NCBI GenBank assembly: GCA_011959805.1
Contig: BLMC01000008.1
Span: forward strand, 1 to 64,000
DNA: 64,000 nucleotides
Direction of reading: 5' to 3'
Source: Lachnospiraceae bacterium
Lineage (GTDB): Bacteria; Bacillota; Clostridia; Lachnospirales; Lachnospiraceae
Position numbers and translations under genes: made by a program
Shown: in pieces, positions 8,621 through 63,692 of the stretch
How the letters are laid out: every line of letters starts with the position of its first letter
Numbering within the stretch: the stretch's first letter is position 1
The notes under the pieces: model-generated
Seen by the model: only the letters and a program-made list of their open reading frames with translations
What the model was told of the DNA's origin: nothing
The model's database searches: none

Positions 8621-10192
8621 CTACTGTGGCGGTAGTTGTTGTGGTAAAAGCTGTTGTGTCAAATCCTGCGGCAACATTTTCCCATCTACATCAAATAGAT
8701 AAGGAATTCCGTCAATTTCAACAATTCCTGTCTGCATGTTTCCGTTGCTATCAAAATAATAAATATTATCACTAATTGTTGTCAAACCAATTGCCATATG
8801 CCCATCTGCCTCATAAAACTTTGCAGAAATTCCATCATTATACCATCCTGTATACATAACTCCATCTGGCGCAAACAAATACGAAAGACCATTTAATGTC
8901 ACTGCTCCTGTCATCATACGCCCCAATTCATCAAACAAATATGTTTTTCCTTCTATAGGCTGCCAACCTGTAACCCTGTGCCCATCATCCATAGATAGAT
9001 AATAACTATATGCGCCATCATTAAACCAACCACGTACCATAGGGCCATCTGCCGCAAAAAGAAATGTTTGCGCTCCAATGGTCTGCCATCCTGTCTGTAA
9101 ATATCCATTCGCATCAAAATAATAATTGTTATTATTAATTGAATTTAAACCAATTAACATATGTCCATCTATAGAGAAAAAGCGCTTTCCATCTGGAAAA
9201 TCAAGAAATCCCGTATACATAACACCATCTTCTGCAAAATAATAATAAAGACCATCTAAATTTTGCAAGCCTGTAAGCATTTTTCCATCTATGCCAAAGC
9301 AGTACATTCCCAATCCAATTGGAGTAAAACCAACAGCCATAACACCATCTGACTGCAAATAATACATACCATCTTCGAGCGGAAGCCATCCAGTCACCAT
9401 TCTACCAGCTGGATCAAGATAGTATTTTGCCGTACCTAAGTCAAGCCAACCACGCTGCATTTTATAATTGATATAATAATATAAAAAACCTTTTCTTGGA
9501 ACCCATCCAGTATTTACAATGCTTGTAGAAAAGTCTTTAAGCGCGTAGTCCAAATCAACATCACCTTTAATTCCCGGAATCCTACCCTTACAAGAATACT
9601 GCCATACTGCAGCATCTGGAATCTCACATGCCTCTGCCCACTGAGCTACCCATTTATCATAAAATATTGGGCCTATCCTGTCCCGATACCAATTAGTGCT
9701 AGAATACACCATTGGATAATATCCTTCCGCTTCCAATGTAGCACAAAATGTATTTGCCATCAGCGATAACGTTTCCGGTGAAAGTGTTTTATGTACATTG
9801 TCCTCAACATCCCACACCACAGGATATGATACTTGAACATTCTGAATCGCATCTAATACAAACTGTGCCTCAGCTGCTGCCTCCTGCACATTTTTTGCGT
9901 AAGAATAAATATATACGCCTGTCTTAATACCTGCTTGCTGTGCAGCAAGCATATTGTAATAAAAATACTCGTCAATTCCCTTACGAGTTGAACCTACTCG
10001 AATAAAAGCAAACTGAACACCACTCTGTGCAACTTCTTGCCAATTAATAGCACCCTGCCACTTAGAAACATCAATTCCTGTTTCTACAACTGCTGCATTT
10101 GCTGAAACAACTGGTACATTACTAAAAATACATATTACCAATAATGTACATAAAATACGCATAAATCCTTTGTTTAATCTTTGTTCTCTCAT
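8621..10192 (-). CDS. secreted GH25 lysozyme with C-terminal cell-wall-binding repeats
   Basis: Signal peptide; GIDVSKWQGAINW...VWDVED GH25 motifs; about 11 GW/YYF-type repeats (GWLPLEDGMYYLQSDGVM..). Confidence 0.93.
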   Translation of the reverse strand: MREQRLNKGFMRILCTLLVICIFSNVPVVSANAAVVETGIDVSKWQGAINWQEVAQSGVQFAFIRVGSTRKGIDEYFYYNMLAAQQAGIKTGVYIYSYAKNVQEAAAEAQFVLDAIQNVQVSYPVVWDVEDNVHKTLSPETLSLMANTFCATLEAEGYYPMVYSSTNWYRDRIGPIFYDKWVAQWAEACEIPDAAVWQYSCKGRIPGIKGDVDLDYALKDFSTSIVNTGWVPRKGFLYYYINYKMQRGWLDLGTAKYYLDPAGRMVTGWLPLEDGMYYLQSDGVMAVGFTPIGLGMYCFGIDGKMLTGLQNLDGLYYYFAEDGVMYTGFLDFPDGKRFFSIDGHMLIGLNSINNNNYYFDANGYLQTGWQTIGAQTFLFAADGPMVRGWFNDGAYSYYLSMDDGHRVTGWQPIEGKTYLFDELGRMMTGAVTLNGLSYLFAPDGVMYTGWYNDGISAKFYEADGHMAIGLTTISDNIYYFDSNGNMQTGIVEIDGIPYLFDVDGKMLPQDLTQQLLPQQLPPQ

Positions 10193-28189: not shown

Positions 28190-28290
28190 CGCTTTCAATT
28201 GAGTAGGAAAACATGTCTTCTCCTACTTGCGCGCCAGACGCAAACAACTTTAGCTGCATATTTCCTTTCCGCGTCCATGCGCATAAACAG
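28190..28290 (+). repeat. dispersed intergenic repeat copy A, in the pta 5' UTR
   Basis: GAGTAGGA..TCCTACTTGCGCGCCAGACGC..TTTCCTTTCCGCGTCCATGCGCATAAA, same layout as copies B-F. Confidence 0.85.
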
Positions 28291-28332: not shown

Positions 28333-29322
28333 ATGTATGGATTTGGTACAATGATTGATCAACTGAAAAAAAACCCAAAAACTATCGTCTTCACAGAAGG
28401 TACGGACCCACGTATTCTTGAGGCGGCTTCCCGTCTTTTGGCAAGTAGTTTCCTTCATCCTATTCTTGTTGGCAATGAGGAAGAGGTTTTGAGTGCTGCG
28501 GAGGAAGCTGGCTACAATATTCGCGGTGCACAAATTATTGACAGCAAGCATTATGACCGCTTTGATGAGATGGTTGAACGATTTTGCGAACTTCGCAAAG
28601 GCAAAGGCATGACAAAGGAAGACGCAAAAAGTATTTTATCCCAGCCAAATTATTTTGGCACAATGCTTGTAGAAATGGGGGTAGCAGATTCCCTTCTTGG
28701 CGGCGCCACATACTCTACAGCAGATACAGTTCGCCCTGCTCTTCAGATTATCAAGACAAAGCCAGGCAACAATATTGTATCTTCCTGCTTTATTCTTGTA
28801 CGTCCTGGCGCAACTGGAGAAAACGAAGTTCTTGCTATGAGTGATTGTGCCATCAATATCAATCCTACAGAAGATGAACTCGTAGAAATTTGTGGTGAGA
28901 CTATCGAGTGCGCTAAAATTTTTGGTGTGGACCCAAAAGTTGCATTTCTAAGTTACTCAACACTTGGTTCCGGAAAAGGACCTGATGTAGAGAAAATGAG
29001 AAATGCTGCGCTAAAAGCAAAGGTAAAATATCCAATGACTCCAATTGAAGGAGAATTGCAGTTTGACTCAGCCGTTTCTCCGCGTGTGGCGCGTACAAAA
29101 TGCCCAAAATCAGCAGTTGCAGGCCATGCAAACACTTTTATATTCCCAGATTTAAGCTCTGGAAATATGGGTTACAAAATTGCACAGAGAATGGGTAATT
29201 TCGAGGCGTATGGACCAATTCTTCTAGGACTAAACGCACCAGTCAATGACCTTTCCCGCGGATGTAATGCGATTGAAGTATATTCGATGGCAATTATTAC
29301 AGCAGCGTTAGTAATCGATTAG
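28333..29322 (+). CDS. pta: phosphate acetyltransferase
   Basis: PTA family: VFTEGTDPRILEAASRL, GATGENEVLAMSDCAININP, ANTFIFPDLSSGNMGYKIAQR. Confidence 0.96.
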   Translation: MYGFGTMIDQLKKNPKTIVFTEGTDPRILEAASRLLASSFLHPILVGNEEEVLSAAEEAGYNIRGAQIIDSKHYDRFDEMVERFCELRKGKGMTKEDAKSILSQPNYFGTMLVEMGVADSLLGGATYSTADTVRPALQIIKTKPGNNIVSSCFILVRPGATGENEVLAMSDCAININPTEDELVEICGETIECAKIFGVDPKVAFLSYSTLGSGKGPDVEKMRNAALKAKVKYPMTPIEGELQFDSAVSPRVARTKCPKSAVAGHANTFIFPDLSSGNMGYKIAQRMGNFEAYGPILLGLNAPVNDLSRGCNAIEVYSMAIITAALVID

Positions 29323-29399
29323 AAAATATTGTTTTCTCGCTCCAGACATCTTTCAGCTTCTGCTGACATTTTTTCCATTGGACGCCCATGTGCATAAAA
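29312..29399 (+). repeat. dispersed intergenic repeat copy B (degenerate), overlapping the pta stop codon
   Basis: AATCGATTAGAAAAT..TTTTCTCGCTCCAGAC..CAGCTTCTGCTG..ATTTTTTCCATTGGACGCCCATGTGCATAAAA. Confidence 0.8.
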
Positions 29400-29430
29400 A
29401 AGCAGACCAAGAATTAGGGTCTGCTTTTTT
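29396..29430. terminator. bidirectional terminator between pta and degV
   Basis: AAAAAAGCAGACC-aagaattag-GGTCTGCTTTTTT. Confidence 0.9.
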
Positions 29431-34693: not shown

Positions 34694-34970
34694 TTTAAGA
34701 ATGCCACCGGCATCTTGCTGTGACATGCAAATCAACTCTGCTGACATAAACTAATTCACACGCTCGCAATCTTACCAGAGGCTTATCTTAGTCGAAATTA
34801 TATCTAGGACAAAGTTATATTTTTTTACCACTCATAGAAGTGGAAGTCTTCTCCGACTAAGATAAAAAACACTAATGTTATTATTATAACCGTTTTTTGG
34901 TAAAAAAGAAACATATATTTTTATAGAATTCATTGTTTGCAAAAAAATTACATTTTTTATGAAAAATAAC

Positions 34971-35234: not shown

Positions 35235-35256
35235 TTAGAATTATAGTGATATTATC

Positions 35257-35286
35257 AAATAGGGGAAGGTAAATCTTCCCCTATTT
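35257..35286 (+). terminator. rpmB terminator
   Basis: 12-bp perfect stem AAATAGGGGAAG/CTTCCCCTATTT. Confidence 0.85.
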
Positions 35287-35374
35287 GCTGTGCATGTGTT
35301 TACCAACTCTGCTAACTATTTTCTTATAAACACCTGTATATAAGAATTGATAATACTTTCTTTACTTCCCCGCC

Positions 35375-35493
35375 AAATACTTTTCTTTGGGCATCCATGT
35401 AATCAAGTAGAGAAGATTCCTCTTCTCCTTACTCGCACGCCAGACACGGATAGCTTTCGCTGCATAGTTCCTCTCCGCGTTTGTGTACATAAA
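35375..35493 (+). repeat. dispersed intergenic repeat copy C (full unit preceded by a shortened unit)
   Basis: GCCAAATACTTTTCTTTGGGCATCCATG + TAATCAAGTAGAGAAG..CTTCTCCTTACTCGCACGCCAGACACGG..CTCTCCGCGTTTGTGTACATAAAA. Confidence 0.8.
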
Positions 35494-35531
35494 AGAGTCG
35501 GTACTATTTAACTTTCATAGTACCGACTCTT
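35493..35531 (-). terminator. terminator hairpin overlapping the 3' end of the J-domain-like CDS
   Basis: AAGAGTCGGTACTA/TAGTACCGACTCTT 14-bp stem; stop codon in the loop. Confidence 0.8.
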
Positions 35532-36071
35532 TAAGTTTTCATACTCTGTCTGAATCAACAGCAATGTCTTAGTATCACCACATTTGTTATCTGGGTGAAA
35601 AATCTTCAGCAATTCTTTATAGCGCTTCCGCAAAGCCATATCATTGTCAACCCCTCGGAAAAAGCTTGTACTCTCATAAACACCAGACTCATACTGTGTA
35701 TGTGCTGACTTGGCACTCGACATTCGTTGACGCCGATACTTACTCTTTTCATGTTCAAAATTCAACCGTTCGCACTCCAACGCCTTCCTATCAATTGCCA
35801 ATTGCTGATATGCATCTTCAATAATTTTCTGTTTCTTAGCGATAAAAACCTCATTATCATCATATCGCTTTTGAATAGTTTTCTCACGCCTGTCCAAAAT
35901 ATTTTTATCTCGCTCAAGTTTTCGCTTTAAATCCTGTAATTCACGACTAAGCTCATGCAGCTCATCTCTTTTTGACTGAATTCTGACCTGCTCTTGAAAC
36001 ATCCATGCTTTCATCTTTTTGATATCATCTGGATCTTCAACCGCCATAAGCGCCTCATCAAAATCCAACAT
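35508..36071 (-). CDS. coiled-coil protein with C-terminal J-domain-like segment
   Basis: RYKELLKIFHPDNKCGDTKTLLLIQTEYENLKSRY: HPD motif at the C terminus. Confidence 0.75.
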   Translation of the reverse strand: MLDFDEALMAVEDPDDIKKMKAWMFQEQVRIQSKRDELHELSRELQDLKRKLERDKNILDRREKTIQKRYDDNEVFIAKKQKIIEDAYQQLAIDRKALECERLNFEHEKSKYRRQRMSSAKSAHTQYESGVYESTSFFRGVDNDMALRKRYKELLKIFHPDNKCGDTKTLLLIQTEYENLKSRYYES

Positions 36072-53597: not shown

Positions 53598-53699
53598 TGT
53601 GCAATCGAGTAGAGACCCCTACTCGCGCGCCGGGCACCCGTCAGCGAACCGATAAATTGGTTTGATGACACATTTCACTTGGGTGCCTGTGTGCACAAA
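53598..53699 (+). repeat. dispersed intergenic repeat copy D
   Basis: TGTGCAATCGAGTAG..CTACTCGCGCGCCGGGCACCC..GGGTGCCTGTGTGCACAAAA; stem sequence differs but pairing is retained. Confidence 0.85.
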
Positions 53700-53701
53700 A
53701 A

Positions 53702-53722
53702 GACGACAGATATTTCTGTCGC
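53702..53722 (-). terminator. terminator of the Asp/Thr-rich lipoprotein gene
   Basis: CGACAG/CTGTCG stem with T-rich flank. Confidence 0.65.
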
Positions 53723-53747: not shown

Positions 53748-54371
53748 TTACAATTCGTGACGAAACAGCTCTGTACCATTGCTTGTCCTATAAACAATCT
53801 GCACTACAAGATCGGAAATACCAATTGTTTCTTTCAGCTCATCACGCATTGGCTGAAACTGATCTTTAAGTCCATCAAATTGTTGCTGCATTTGTGTTTC
53901 CATTTCACTTTTCTGCTCATCTGTCAAATCACTGCCGTCTGTGCCAAGAGCCTCTGCCGAAAGTACAAAAACCATAGACAATGTATTGCCTTCTCCCTCA
54001 AACTCTGTTGTCATCATTCCATTCGACATTGCGCCAATTGTTGTATTAAGCACCTCCACATATTGAGCAGCTTCCTCAGAGCTTACCCATTCCTCAACAG
54101 TCATGCCACCCTCTGCATTCGCATTTGCTGTATCTGTCTGTGCTGTATCTTCTGTATCTGCATTTGCTGTATCTTCTGTATCTGCATTTGCTGTATCTGT
54201 CTGTGCTGTACCTTCTGTATCTGTGTTTGCTGCATCTTCTACAGTATTTGTAACTGCTGCTGACTCTGCTGGTGCCTTATCGTTATCTTTTGAACCACAT
54301 GCTGTCACTGTAAACATCATTGATGTCACAACTGCTACTGATAAAATTACATTAACAATCTTCTTTTTCAT
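53748..54371 (-). CDS. putative lipoprotein/secreted protein with Asp-Thr-Ala repeat linker (ORF extends to 54401)
   Basis: Signal/lipobox MMFTVTACGS; repeats TEDTAN/ADTEDT/AQTDTAN. Confidence 0.8.
   Translation of the reverse strand: MKKKIVNVILSVAVVTSMMFTVTACGSKDNDKAPAESAAVTNTVEDAANTDTEGTAQTDTANADTEDTANADTEDTAQTDTANANAEGGMTVEEWVSSEEAAQYVEVLNTTIGAMSNGMMTTEFEGEGNTLSMVFVLSAEALGTDGSDLTDEQKSEMETQMQQQFDGLKDQFQPMRDELKETIGISDLVVQIVYRTSNGTELFRHEL
54119..54232. repeat. in-frame low-complexity tandem repeat in the lipoprotein linker
   Basis: Repeated TGTATCTTCTGTATCTGCATTTGC / TGTATCTGTCTGTGC units. Confidence 0.85.
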
Positions 54372-54564
54372 CCTAAATTCCCCCTTCTTATGAAAAATCA
54401 TAAATAATTGTTTAACGTCTTAACAATTTAGCAGTTTATCACTGTTTGATTAATGTGTCAACTTCCAAAACATATTTTCGGAGTGTTGTTTAGAATAACA
54501 ATAATTTCCTCCAAATTTTAGTGCACTTTATACAGTTTTAAATAAACAATAGTTTAAAATAAAT

Positions 54565-57799: not shown

Positions 57800-58159
57800 C
57801 TAATCCTTATAATTGTCAATAATCTTCTGAATTTCATCAATTTCTTGTCTGGACAAATTCTTTTTTCGTGTAAATGCCGCAATAAAACTAGGAAGTGACC
57901 CTGAAAACGTTCGTTCGACAATCTCTGTACTCTCTGCTGACTGTGCATCTTCTCTGGAAACCAGCGAAGTCACGATTGCATCTTCGGATTTAATCACACC
58001 GCGCTCAGAAAGTCTTCGTATCACAGTGTATGTTGTAGACTTTTTCCACTCTAACTTTTCTCTACATAATCGAACCAATTCACTGCTTGTCACTGGCTCA
58101 TTCTCCCATAAAATCTCACAAAAACGGTATTCACTCTCAAATATTTTTGGCACTTCCAT
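57800..58159 (-). CDS. BlaI/MecI/CopY-family transcriptional repressor
   Basis: FCEILWENEPVTSSELVRLCREKLEWKKSTTYTVIRRLSERGVIKSE wHTH. Confidence 0.95.
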   Translation of the reverse strand: MEVPKIFESEYRFCEILWENEPVTSSELVRLCREKLEWKKSTTYTVIRRLSERGVIKSEDAIVTSLVSREDAQSAESTEIVERTFSGSLPSFIAAFTRKKNLSRQEIDEIQKIIDNYKD

Positions 58160-58262: not shown

Positions 58263-58379
58263 TGCCGCCTTTGGCGGCACAAATAGATAGGAAAAACGCT
58301 GTCTTTTGCGTTTTTCCTGTGCGAAACTTAATCGTTCTAAGACAGTGTCTTTCGCTGCCTTAGAACGATTAAGTTTCGT
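58263..58379 (-). other. three consecutive intergenic hairpins (7, 11 and 20-24 bp stems)
   Basis: TGCCGCC/GGCGGCA; AGGAAAAACGC/GCGTTTTTCCT; CGAAACTTAATCGTTCTAAG/CTTAGAACGATTAAGTTTCG. Confidence 0.85.
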
Positions 58380-58486
58380 ACTACTTTCGATGCAACTTTT
58401 ATGGATTCTTTTCGATAAAAATATTCAAGCTTGTATGCTGTTATATTGGTTATTGCTTTGTTCCATTAATATAGGGTTCAACCCCA

Positions 58487-59281
58487 TTACTTTTTCATAA
58501 AATAACAGAATAACACTGAAAAAAGAATCCCTTCCAGCACAACACAAACAATCATTTCTGTCAACATTTTATAAAGTCCTGTTAAGGTAGAAAGATTTCC
58601 AAGAAGAAATAGATATCCTGCTGCCAGAGCTACTCCTGTTAGCGTTAACCCATAAATGGCTTTATGAATTCTACATCCACGAAGTCGCAAAAAATTGGAC
58701 AGAACAAAAATACCAAGCTGGGCGCCAGCTATCATTTTAAGCCATCGGTCTAAGTAAAAGCCTGTCTCCTCTAATGGTATGTTAAATATATAGTCCTCTC
58801 CTCTGCCCATTGGAATACTCCAGAAAATAATAATTGCAAAGTACACTCCAATCAACACAATGCTAATTCCAATAAAAACCCACGATAACCTTGACTTTTT
58901 AGATGGCACTATATTCCATGATGCCAAACCATATGCGATAAAAAGAAAAAATGGAAAAGACAGATACAACAAGTTAGCTCCAAGTGGCATTTGAGAATCT
59001 TGTATCGCCAAAAATCCGCCTATTATCACAATTGTCAACAATAGTATACCAAGCACTTCATTTTTCATATAGTGTTTTTTTATCTTCTTAAAATACGAAA
59101 TTTTTGTTGATTCTCCTTGCTTGTCAGTAAGTTCGACTTTCTTTAGCAACTCCAACTTTGTACGACATTGTTCGCAATTTTTCAAATGTGTATCAACAAG
59201 GTTTCTACTCTCCTCTGAACAGATTACATCCAGATACAATGGCATCAAATCTTTGATTACATTACAATCCAAATCTTTCAT
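58487..59281 (-). CDS. putative anti-sigma factor, N-terminal zinc finger plus TM helices
   Basis: DLMPLYLDVICSEESRNLVDTHLKNCEQCRTKL ZAS-like HxxxCxxC; six hydrophobic segments. Confidence 0.85.
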   Translation of the reverse strand: MKDLDCNVIKDLMPLYLDVICSEESRNLVDTHLKNCEQCRTKLELLKKVELTDKQGESTKISYFKKIKKHYMKNEVLGILLLTIVIIGGFLAIQDSQMPLGANLLYLSFPFFLFIAYGLASWNIVPSKKSRLSWVFIGISIVLIGVYFAIIIFWSIPMGRGEDYIFNIPLEETGFYLDRWLKMIAGAQLGIFVLSNFLRLRGCRIHKAIYGLTLTGVALAAGYLFLLGNLSTLTGLYKMLTEMIVCVVLEGILFSVLFCYFMKK

Positions 59282-61571: not shown

Positions 61572-61755
61572 TGCACAATCGAATAAGGCAGATTTATCTT
61601 CCTTACTCTATATTAGGCGTTTGTCAGCTTCTGCTGATATTTTTCCTTTGGACGCCCGTGTGCAATCGAGTAGGGAAGTCTATCTTCCCCTACTCGCGCG
61701 CCGGACGCGGGCAGCATTTGCTGCTTATTTCCTCTCCGCGTCCGTGTGCATAAAA
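61572..61755 (+). repeat. dispersed intergenic repeat copy F: tandem pair of diverged units (F1 61572-61660, F2 61661-61755)
   Basis: TGCACAATCGAATAAG..CTTACTC..GGCGTTTGTCAGCTTCTGCTGATATTTTTCCTTTGGACGCCCGTG + TGCAATCGAGTAGGGAAG..CTTCCCCTACTCGCGCGCCGGACGCGGGCAGCATTTGCTGCTTATTTCCTCTCCGCGTCCGTGTGCATAAAA. Confidence 0.9.
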
Positions 61756-61783
61756 AAACATGACCATACAGCCATGTTTTAAT
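61754..61783 (-). terminator. terminator-like hairpin abutting repeat copy F
   Basis: AAAACATG..CATGTTTT with T7 run on the minus strand. Confidence 0.6.
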
Positions 61784-62111: not shown

Positions 62112-63692
62112 TTACAGTTGCAATACTGCATCAAAGCGTCCTAATACTTCTTTACTTCTATCATGTGTTATCACAATAACAATTTTATCCTGAATACTAA
62201 AAATCATATTAAAGATTTCATTCGCTGTCTCTGCATCCAGATTGCTGGTCGGTTCATCAAACACAAGAACATCATAGTTATGCACCATAAAGCGCGCAAT
62301 ATCAATTCGCTGCTTTTCTCCAAAAGAAACTTCACCGGAATCAGATGTACCAATTTCCTTTTGCACCAACTCGCTATTAAGCTTTAAATCCTGACAAACT
62401 TGATTCAATTCTCCATTCGAGATATTTTCTCTATAAAGTACAATATTATCTTTGACAGAACCGTCAATCAGAAATTCATTGCGCTGGATATAGCCAATCT
62501 TTTGATAAACACTGTCTGAATCAATAGTTCGGATATCTTGATTATTAATTCGGACTGTACCCTCATACTCATTTTCTGTCAAATATTTCATCAACAAATG
62601 CATCAATGTTGACTTTCCTTTTCCAGATTCGCCGACAATCGCATATTTTCTCCCAGCTTCAAATGTCGTATGGAATCCCTGAAATATCTCCTTATTTCCA
62701 AACTGAAGATTCACATTATGAAATTCTATTTTTTGCACTTCCCCTAAAATCTCTTTTTCTACCTTTTCTTCTATTGTCTGTTCCTGATCAATCCGACAAA
62801 TAATTTCTTTTGTTGTTCCCATTAGATTTTTTTCTTCTACAAAAAACTGTAATGGAGAAAATACCCCATTTAAAAGCTGTACTGCTGCAATTAAAAGGCC
62901 CACTGTCATATCTCCACGAAGTACAAACCAGATACCCACAGCCATACACAAAAGCTGTGAAAGCATTCCAATTGCCATTCCTATATTATTTGATGTAATT
63001 TTTGCAAACAGATAATGCATTCTGGACTTTTCATATTCATAGTCTTTTGCATTTAACTTTTCCTGAAAAAGTTTTCCCAATCCTAAAAGCTTTACCTGTT
63101 CAAAGCCTTTTAAATAATTTTCAAGCAATGCCATGTAAACACTGTTGTTGTGCGTGTATTCCACCGTCTTTCTTGCCATAATAGTTCCTGGAATCTGAGA
63201 GAGGACTACCGTAATAAATGAAATAATAACAAAAGAAACTCCAAGCTTCCAGTTGATTACAAATATGGATAACAGACAGACAGCTGCAGATAAAATATGG
63301 GAAACAATATTGCATTTTGGCATCAAATAATTGTCTACCACAAGGTCAATATCCTTGGAATATAAACTTAAATAATGTCCATTTTTCTCAGCAAAAAATG
63401 TATTTAACTCCTTATGATAAAGTGCCTTATAAAGATTTGTCTTTAAAAAACGTACAATTTTGTTGACATAGATAATTTTTGTACAATTATATACAAACGA
63501 AACAATTAGCCAACATACCGCCATATAAATACATGTCAGCATAGATGTTTGAAGTGAATCCGTTGGGTCAATTACCACGTCAATTACTTTTCCAAGACAA
63601 AAAGAAAACCGCGCCATAAAAATTGCCGAAATAAACCCTAAAATCATTGTTAGAATATAAATTCCCCTATATTGTTTTTCCGCTGTTGCCAT
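62112..63692 (-). CDS. ABC transporter, fused permease and ATP-binding domains
   Basis: N-terminal TM domain; VGESGKGKSTLMHLL, SFGEKQRIDIARFMV, DVLVFDEPTSNLD. Confidence 0.95.
   Translation of the reverse strand: MATAEKQYRGIYILTMILGFISAIFMARFSFCLGKVIDVVIDPTDSLQTSMLTCIYMAVCWLIVSFVYNCTKIIYVNKIVRFLKTNLYKALYHKELNTFFAEKNGHYLSLYSKDIDLVVDNYLMPKCNIVSHILSAAVCLLSIFVINWKLGVSFVIISFITVVLSQIPGTIMARKTVEYTHNNSVYMALLENYLKGFEQVKLLGLGKLFQEKLNAKDYEYEKSRMHYLFAKITSNNIGMAIGMLSQLLCMAVGIWFVLRGDMTVGLLIAAVQLLNGVFSPLQFFVEEKNLMGTTKEIICRIDQEQTIEEKVEKEILGEVQKIEFHNVNLQFGNKEIFQGFHTTFEAGRKYAIVGESGKGKSTLMHLLMKYLTENEYEGTVRINNQDIRTIDSDSVYQKIGYIQRNEFLIDGSVKDNIVLYRENISNGELNQVCQDLKLNSELVQKEIGTSDSGEVSFGEKQRIDIARFMVHNYDVLVFDEPTSNLDAETANEIFNMIFSIQDKIVIVITHDRSKEVLGRFDAVLQL

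Follow-up and report, generated by a model that had tools for sequence, protein, structure and literature searches.

Short structured repeats behind intrinsic terminators in Lachnospiraceae, with an end resembling that of group IIC introns

Repeat units in the window

The window is the whole stretch of DNA analysed, 64,000 nucleotides of contig BLMC01000008.1 (positions 1 to 64,000, forward strand) from the Lachnospiraceae bacterium assembly GCA_011959805.1. Directly behind the intrinsic terminator of a gene ending at 62112 lies a head-to-tail array of two repeat units, and further units of the family occur elsewhere in the window. The features are listed below; R1, R2 and R3 are covariance models of the whole unit, of intron ends and of the core, respectively.

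61752..61781, minus: intrinsic terminator (AACATGGCTGTATGGTCATGTTTTTTT) immediately preceding the array and belonging to the gene ending at 62112; fold -11.0 kcal/mol
61664..61751, minus: best unit (class I), first of the two-unit array; R1 match 61662-61757, 110 bits, E 2.1e-23
61695..61751, minus: core hairpin of the best unit; R3 match, E 5.9e-14; covariation over 36 copies
61664..61699, minus: tail hairpin of the best unit, like domain VI and the 3' end of a group IIC intron; intron-only model R2, 15 bits, E 0.05
61577..61663, minus: second unit of the array; R1 match 61575-61664; junction GATT/GCACA common to both units
28195..28290, minus: unit without a preceding terminator; orthologous site empty in genomes G016 and G308
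29311..29401, minus: unit behind the terminator of the DegV gene, overlapping the pta stop codon
34610..34696, minus: unit placed behind the tail hairpin of a longer class II element; R1 match
34697..34880, minus: this longer related element, termed class II; about 71% identity to G308 L275:9240-9429 and to two places in its own genome; ends approximate
35251..35347, minus: degenerate unit; R1 40.4 bits, E 1.2e-6
35399..35496, minus: unit behind the terminator of gene 35508..36071(-); upstream fold -24.0 kcal/mol
53601..53702, minus: unit with a GGGCACC stem variant, behind the terminator of gene 53748..54401(-); absent in G308

The original prediction had described at least seven units. R1, which was built from 44 copies, recovered all seven at essentially the same coordinates and in a single orientation, and added the degenerate unit at 35251..35347 as an eighth that was missing from the earlier list. 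The terminator at 61752..61781 has a counterpart in G308 without units. At the DegV side, the unit runs into the last part of pta, a convergent gene (29311-29322), and gives it a C-terminus VID slightly unlike that of most congeners. Some spurious intergenic open reading frames are accounted for by the units.

The window also has other repeats. A 27-bp inverted repeat, 93% complementary with a 9-nt spacer, lies at 58319-58381 between genes 57800..58159 and 58487..59281 and is not a unit. Short tandem repeats occur at 54112-54237 within the coding sequence of gene 53748..54401 (minus), whose product is a DUF4854 protein, and imperfect repeats at 8726-9364 in gene 8621..10192(-), which possibly encodes a repetitive surface or wall-binding protein.

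Structure and covariation

We take the strand described originally to be the complement of the functional one; both strands fold. The best copy (61662-61757) folds at -46.8 kcal/mol on the minus strand (z -6.2) and at -49.1 kcal/mol on the plus strand (z -7.4), with 0 of 200 shuffles as good in either case. On the minus strand, the unit reads AUGCACA-C-GGACGCGG-AGAGGAAAUAA-GCAGC-AAAU-GCUGC-CCGCGUCC-G-GCGC-GC-GAGUAGGGGAAG..CUUCCCUACUC-GAUU. The best unit is laid out as AUGCACA, core and GGCGC, followed by a tail hairpin with the end CUACUCGAUU. Its core hairpin comprises a 9-bp stem, an 11-nt one-sided bulge AGAGGAAATAA and the inner hairpin GCAGC-AAAT-GCTGC. The constancy claimed earlier for the one-sided bulge is borne out, with a length kept at 10-12 nt and the minus-strand consensus A-R-AGGAAATW.

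Standard pairs fill 89.3% of the pair cells in the 44 copies. Changes on both sides of a pair were found in 144 cells of these related copies versus 53.5 +/- 5.4 in shuffles (0/500), and the covariation score is 0.432, whereas slid controls reach no more than 0.136. The core alone, compared over 36 sequences taken from the host's own genome and many other genera, has 161 double changes versus 50 under shuffling. The CA ahead of the main stem, the GGAA in the bulge and the GCG behind the stem are retained, and nearly all change is in the stems. Such stem-restricted, pairing-preserving change is the mark of selection on a folded single strand, RNA or DNA. Covariation is strong in both hairpins, which supports the earlier suggestion of a selected structure rather than a simple palindrome. 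The suggestion of an uncharacterised structured RNA stands as regards the selected structure, and none of 4227 Rfam families gave a gathering-score match to the units.

Distribution

R1 has 142 matches (E <= 0.01) in the 4.25-Mb draft genome, with head-to-tail arrays of up to four units (contig C50), and finds units in 32/35 congeneric species. A pattern scan for units matches Lachnospiraceae bacterium COE1 and two uncultured Lachnospiraceae, and the genus of the host and its congeners is therefore probably GTDB COE1. Units also occur patchily in 36 of 248 other Lachnospiraceae genera (R1, E <= 1e-5), and in a class-wide sample the core model matches almost only Lachnospiraceae, plus one genus of another family. 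Rfam and the open-access literature on such repeats yielded no description of the family, although one may exist elsewhere. Whatever moves them, the units are abundant in the genomes of gut Lachnospiraceae and are described in none of the family libraries used.

Mobility and exact ends

At the pta/DegV locus, congeners differ and carry other units or none. Several orthologous sites are empty in G016 and G308 (~85% DNA identity), the clearest being CTGTTTATGAAAGCG versus the filled CTGTTTATGCGCA...CTCAATTGAAAGCG. In genome G063, which belongs to another genus, seven copies with 90-100% identity lie behind the terminators of seven different genes; their unrelated flanks start directly after GATT, which marks a sharp 3' end. 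For four of these loci, the orthologous sites found in congeners of G063 are all without a unit. Three empty sites favour the ends ATGCACA...CGATT, and one is better explained by ends lying 1-2 nt inside these. No clear target-site duplication is present at the empty sites, within 2 nt of ambiguity, and the G063 flanks are unrelated. The mobility of the units is well supported by these comparisons. As a separate observation, the units at the pta/DegV locus of G016 (L244) and G308 (L245) combine a 5' stem half GGGCACCC and a 3' half GCGCAGATC from different variants, as if recombined.

The idea of a mobile MITE- or REP-like element is supported as regards mobility by the empty orthologous sites and near-identical copies. 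The units are not MITEs in the strict sense and do not behave like RAYT-linked REPs. MITEs have inverted ends and target duplications; the unit ends AUGCACA and CUCGAUU are not complementary, so that terminal inverted repeats are absent. Integron attC sites are defined by paired RYYYAAC/GTTRRRY boxes, and this identity was rejected since the consensus has none.

Insertion behind intrinsic terminators

Read on the minus strand, units start directly behind intrinsic terminators. Over 814 kb of the host genome, the upstream 50 nt fold at -10 kcal/mol or below for 31 of 38 first-in-array units versus 10-11% of random or T-rich positions; a few of the 38 may be second units of arrays, which leaves the contrast unaffected. 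T content just before the junction is 5.3 of 6 for first-in-array units, and the foot of the unit is TTTAT/GCRCA. Besides the unit at 28195-28290, the one at L104:16090 is an example without a preceding terminator. Lying behind terminators, the units are mostly not transcribed with the gene. The family is very probably a mobile, structure-selected and terminator-targeting repeat.

Relation to group IIC introns

Group IIC introns insert at terminators (PMC4424553, PMC8919778). Introns with a class C reverse transcriptase (RT) occur in the genus, where they start behind terminators and end in a domain VI whose last letters are CTACTYGATT or a near variant. Model R2 was built exclusively from intron domain VI sequences, ten in number, of other genomes. 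On 814 kb of the host, its 12 best matches are all unit tails (best E 1.3e-8); R2 is short, its E-values are rough and most single matches weak, but the order of the matches is unambiguous. Two group IIC introns lie exactly at unit boundaries. In G007:C15 and G034:C55, an intron is followed by a unit without a gap, and the same position is therefore a junction for both. Behind the introns L185/L293 and L313, the unit start GCGCAG or GCAG follows exactly after CGATT. Two features absent from the original description, the terminators next to the units and an end like that of group II introns, point to a mover other than the MITE or REP type.

The units also differ from the introns. Neither the window nor the unit loci have a match to domain V (RF00029), and the hairpin anatomy differs. 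The 5' start GUGYG was not seen in units, which begin with AUGCRCA or GUGCACA. A unit with neither domain V nor GUGYG would therefore be unable to splice or reverse-splice alone. Moreover, the branch-point A of the introns is paired in units, with U-A in 39/43 and the U added opposite. The core motif turned up within group IIC introns or Y1 transposase loci only as adjoining units.

The element has no RT, and the host, an 86.5%-complete draft, has no class C RT match (E <= 1e-30); like it, G016 and G032 combine many units with the lack of such a match. G232 has at least 16 units and no RVT_1 match, and the group II intron of G063, where copies are recent, belongs to another class. Within the genus, unit number is not higher where a class C-like RT is present; the median per genome is 11.5 with a class C-like RT versus 17 without (P 0.53), in a test with a loose RT threshold, non-independent species and counts that reach at least 70 at the maximum.

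Class II relatives with another tail

Class II elements, found in other genera, once in G308 and in the window stretch, have the core of the units and another tail, often ...TTGAA. In several genomes they carry a constant upstream hairpin. Since class II shares the core and not the tail, the core may predate the intron-like tail, and recombination with an intron could have supplied that tail. Together with L111:1616-1776, L128:6349-6514 and L275:9240-9429, the window stretch at 34697-34880 makes up a second, longer repeat family that has the core hairpin in common with the units and a different end hairpin. Near-identical 130-nt elements were also observed in two genera (L203-L207 in G162, L216-L217 in G070), consisting of the constant hairpin AACTCAGTCGGAG..CTCCGACTGAGTT, then GCTCCGCGAGG, the same core and AAGACTCGCGAGCGAGTCTT.

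Proposed mechanism and alternatives

The explanation we favour is that the units are non-autonomous retroelements with a domain-VI-like end that group IIC intron machinery moves in trans, a proposal whose chances we put as evenly balanced. The elements, of ~90 nt, insert on one strand directly behind terminators or terminator-like hairpins. We infer that transcribed unit RNA would be taken up by the group IIC intron ribonucleoprotein (RNP), with the core hairpin and its conserved AGGAA bulge acting as a protein or RNP handle. The 3' tail hairpin and GATT, an imitation of how group IIC introns end in domain VI, would serve as the 3' end that is attached to the target and reverse-transcribed by the intron's enzyme. 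The tail hairpin of an inserted unit would in turn present a new terminator-like target, from which head-to-tail arrays could arise.

It is rather improbable that an unrecognised enzyme moves the units and that the tail came to resemble domain VI by converging on a terminator-like hairpin. Class II relatives do use other tails, neither RT (RVT_1) nor Y1 presence tracks the units and so marks the mover, and a search for a conserved neighbouring transposase around 20 loci in ten genomes returned only common gene families. Convergence accounts poorly for CCTACTCGATT at the very end of both units and introns, for the first rank of units under R2 and for the junctions common to both.

Movement as REP- or PATE-like single-strand DNA by a Y1 transposase (RAYT or IS200/IS605) is improbable. 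Y1 transposases act on hairpins, insert in one orientation and leave no target duplication. The bulged hairpin without clear duplication agrees with this, as do Y1 genes in 11/16 genomes tested, with RAYT-sized ones in G063. However, no unit ends at a Y1 gene, Y1_Tnp matches are missing from four unit-bearing genomes (G189, G211, G201 and G072), and neither the intron-like tail nor terminator targeting is predicted. In the single case of a neighbouring Y1 gene, an IS605 at G000:C101 (L062) considered as parent had inserted into a unit array and was not its source.

A host RNA with a function in gene 3' regions (stability, second terminator or regulator), kept by host selection, would explain the strong covariation and the positions adjoining terminators, but is highly improbable given that presence at the same gene differs between close species, that units behind terminators are mostly not transcribed with the gene, and that arrays and identical copies are what a mobile element would produce.

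Comparison with known systems

Returning to the group IIC proposal, a bolder form, possible and somewhat short of an even chance, is a bacterial retroelement comparable to a SINE. Its 90-nt RNA, equipped with no more than a domain-VI-like end, would live as a parasite on group IIC RNPs acting in trans and would spread to terminators as a free-living counterpart of group III introns. Should the units be moved by group IIC machinery, bacteria would have their own version of SINEs that depend on LINEs, together with a natural group II-type 3' end whose catalytic core acts in trans. This core-in-trans step is commonly postulated for the route to spliceosomal introns, and one review contains no report of it in bacteria. 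If the machinery is not that of group IIC introns, the units would still be a mobile repeat of wide occurrence and strong structure that lands at terminators, moved by some other enzyme.

By description, MITEs and the BOX and RUP repeats of Streptococcus pneumoniae are likewise small, dispersed, structured and intergenic. REPs with RAYT (TnpA-REP) and IS200/IS605-derived PATEs are short, hairpin-forming, intergenic elements of high copy number without target duplication. The units share all of these properties and differ from REP/PATE in terminator targeting, in having no linked Y1 transposase and in having no GTAG/GGAG-type tetranucleotide at the 5' foot.

Group IIC introns have in common with the units the sense insertion after intrinsic terminators, the 3' end CUACUCGAUU and the junctions, and their domain VI hairpin resembles the unit tail. 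In contrast, they are ~1.9 kb long with domains I-VI and an RT, whereas units have 90 nt and no domain V; the introns start with GUGYG and the units with AUGCRC, and the branch-point A is paired in the units. The group III introns found in chloroplasts of Euglena have 90-120 nt, sometimes with only domain I and VI motifs, and their catalytic core is thought to be supplied in trans (PMC4424553). They resemble the units in short size and reduced motifs; known from Euglena chloroplasts, they interrupt genes and are spliced, whereas the units are intergenic and lie behind genes.
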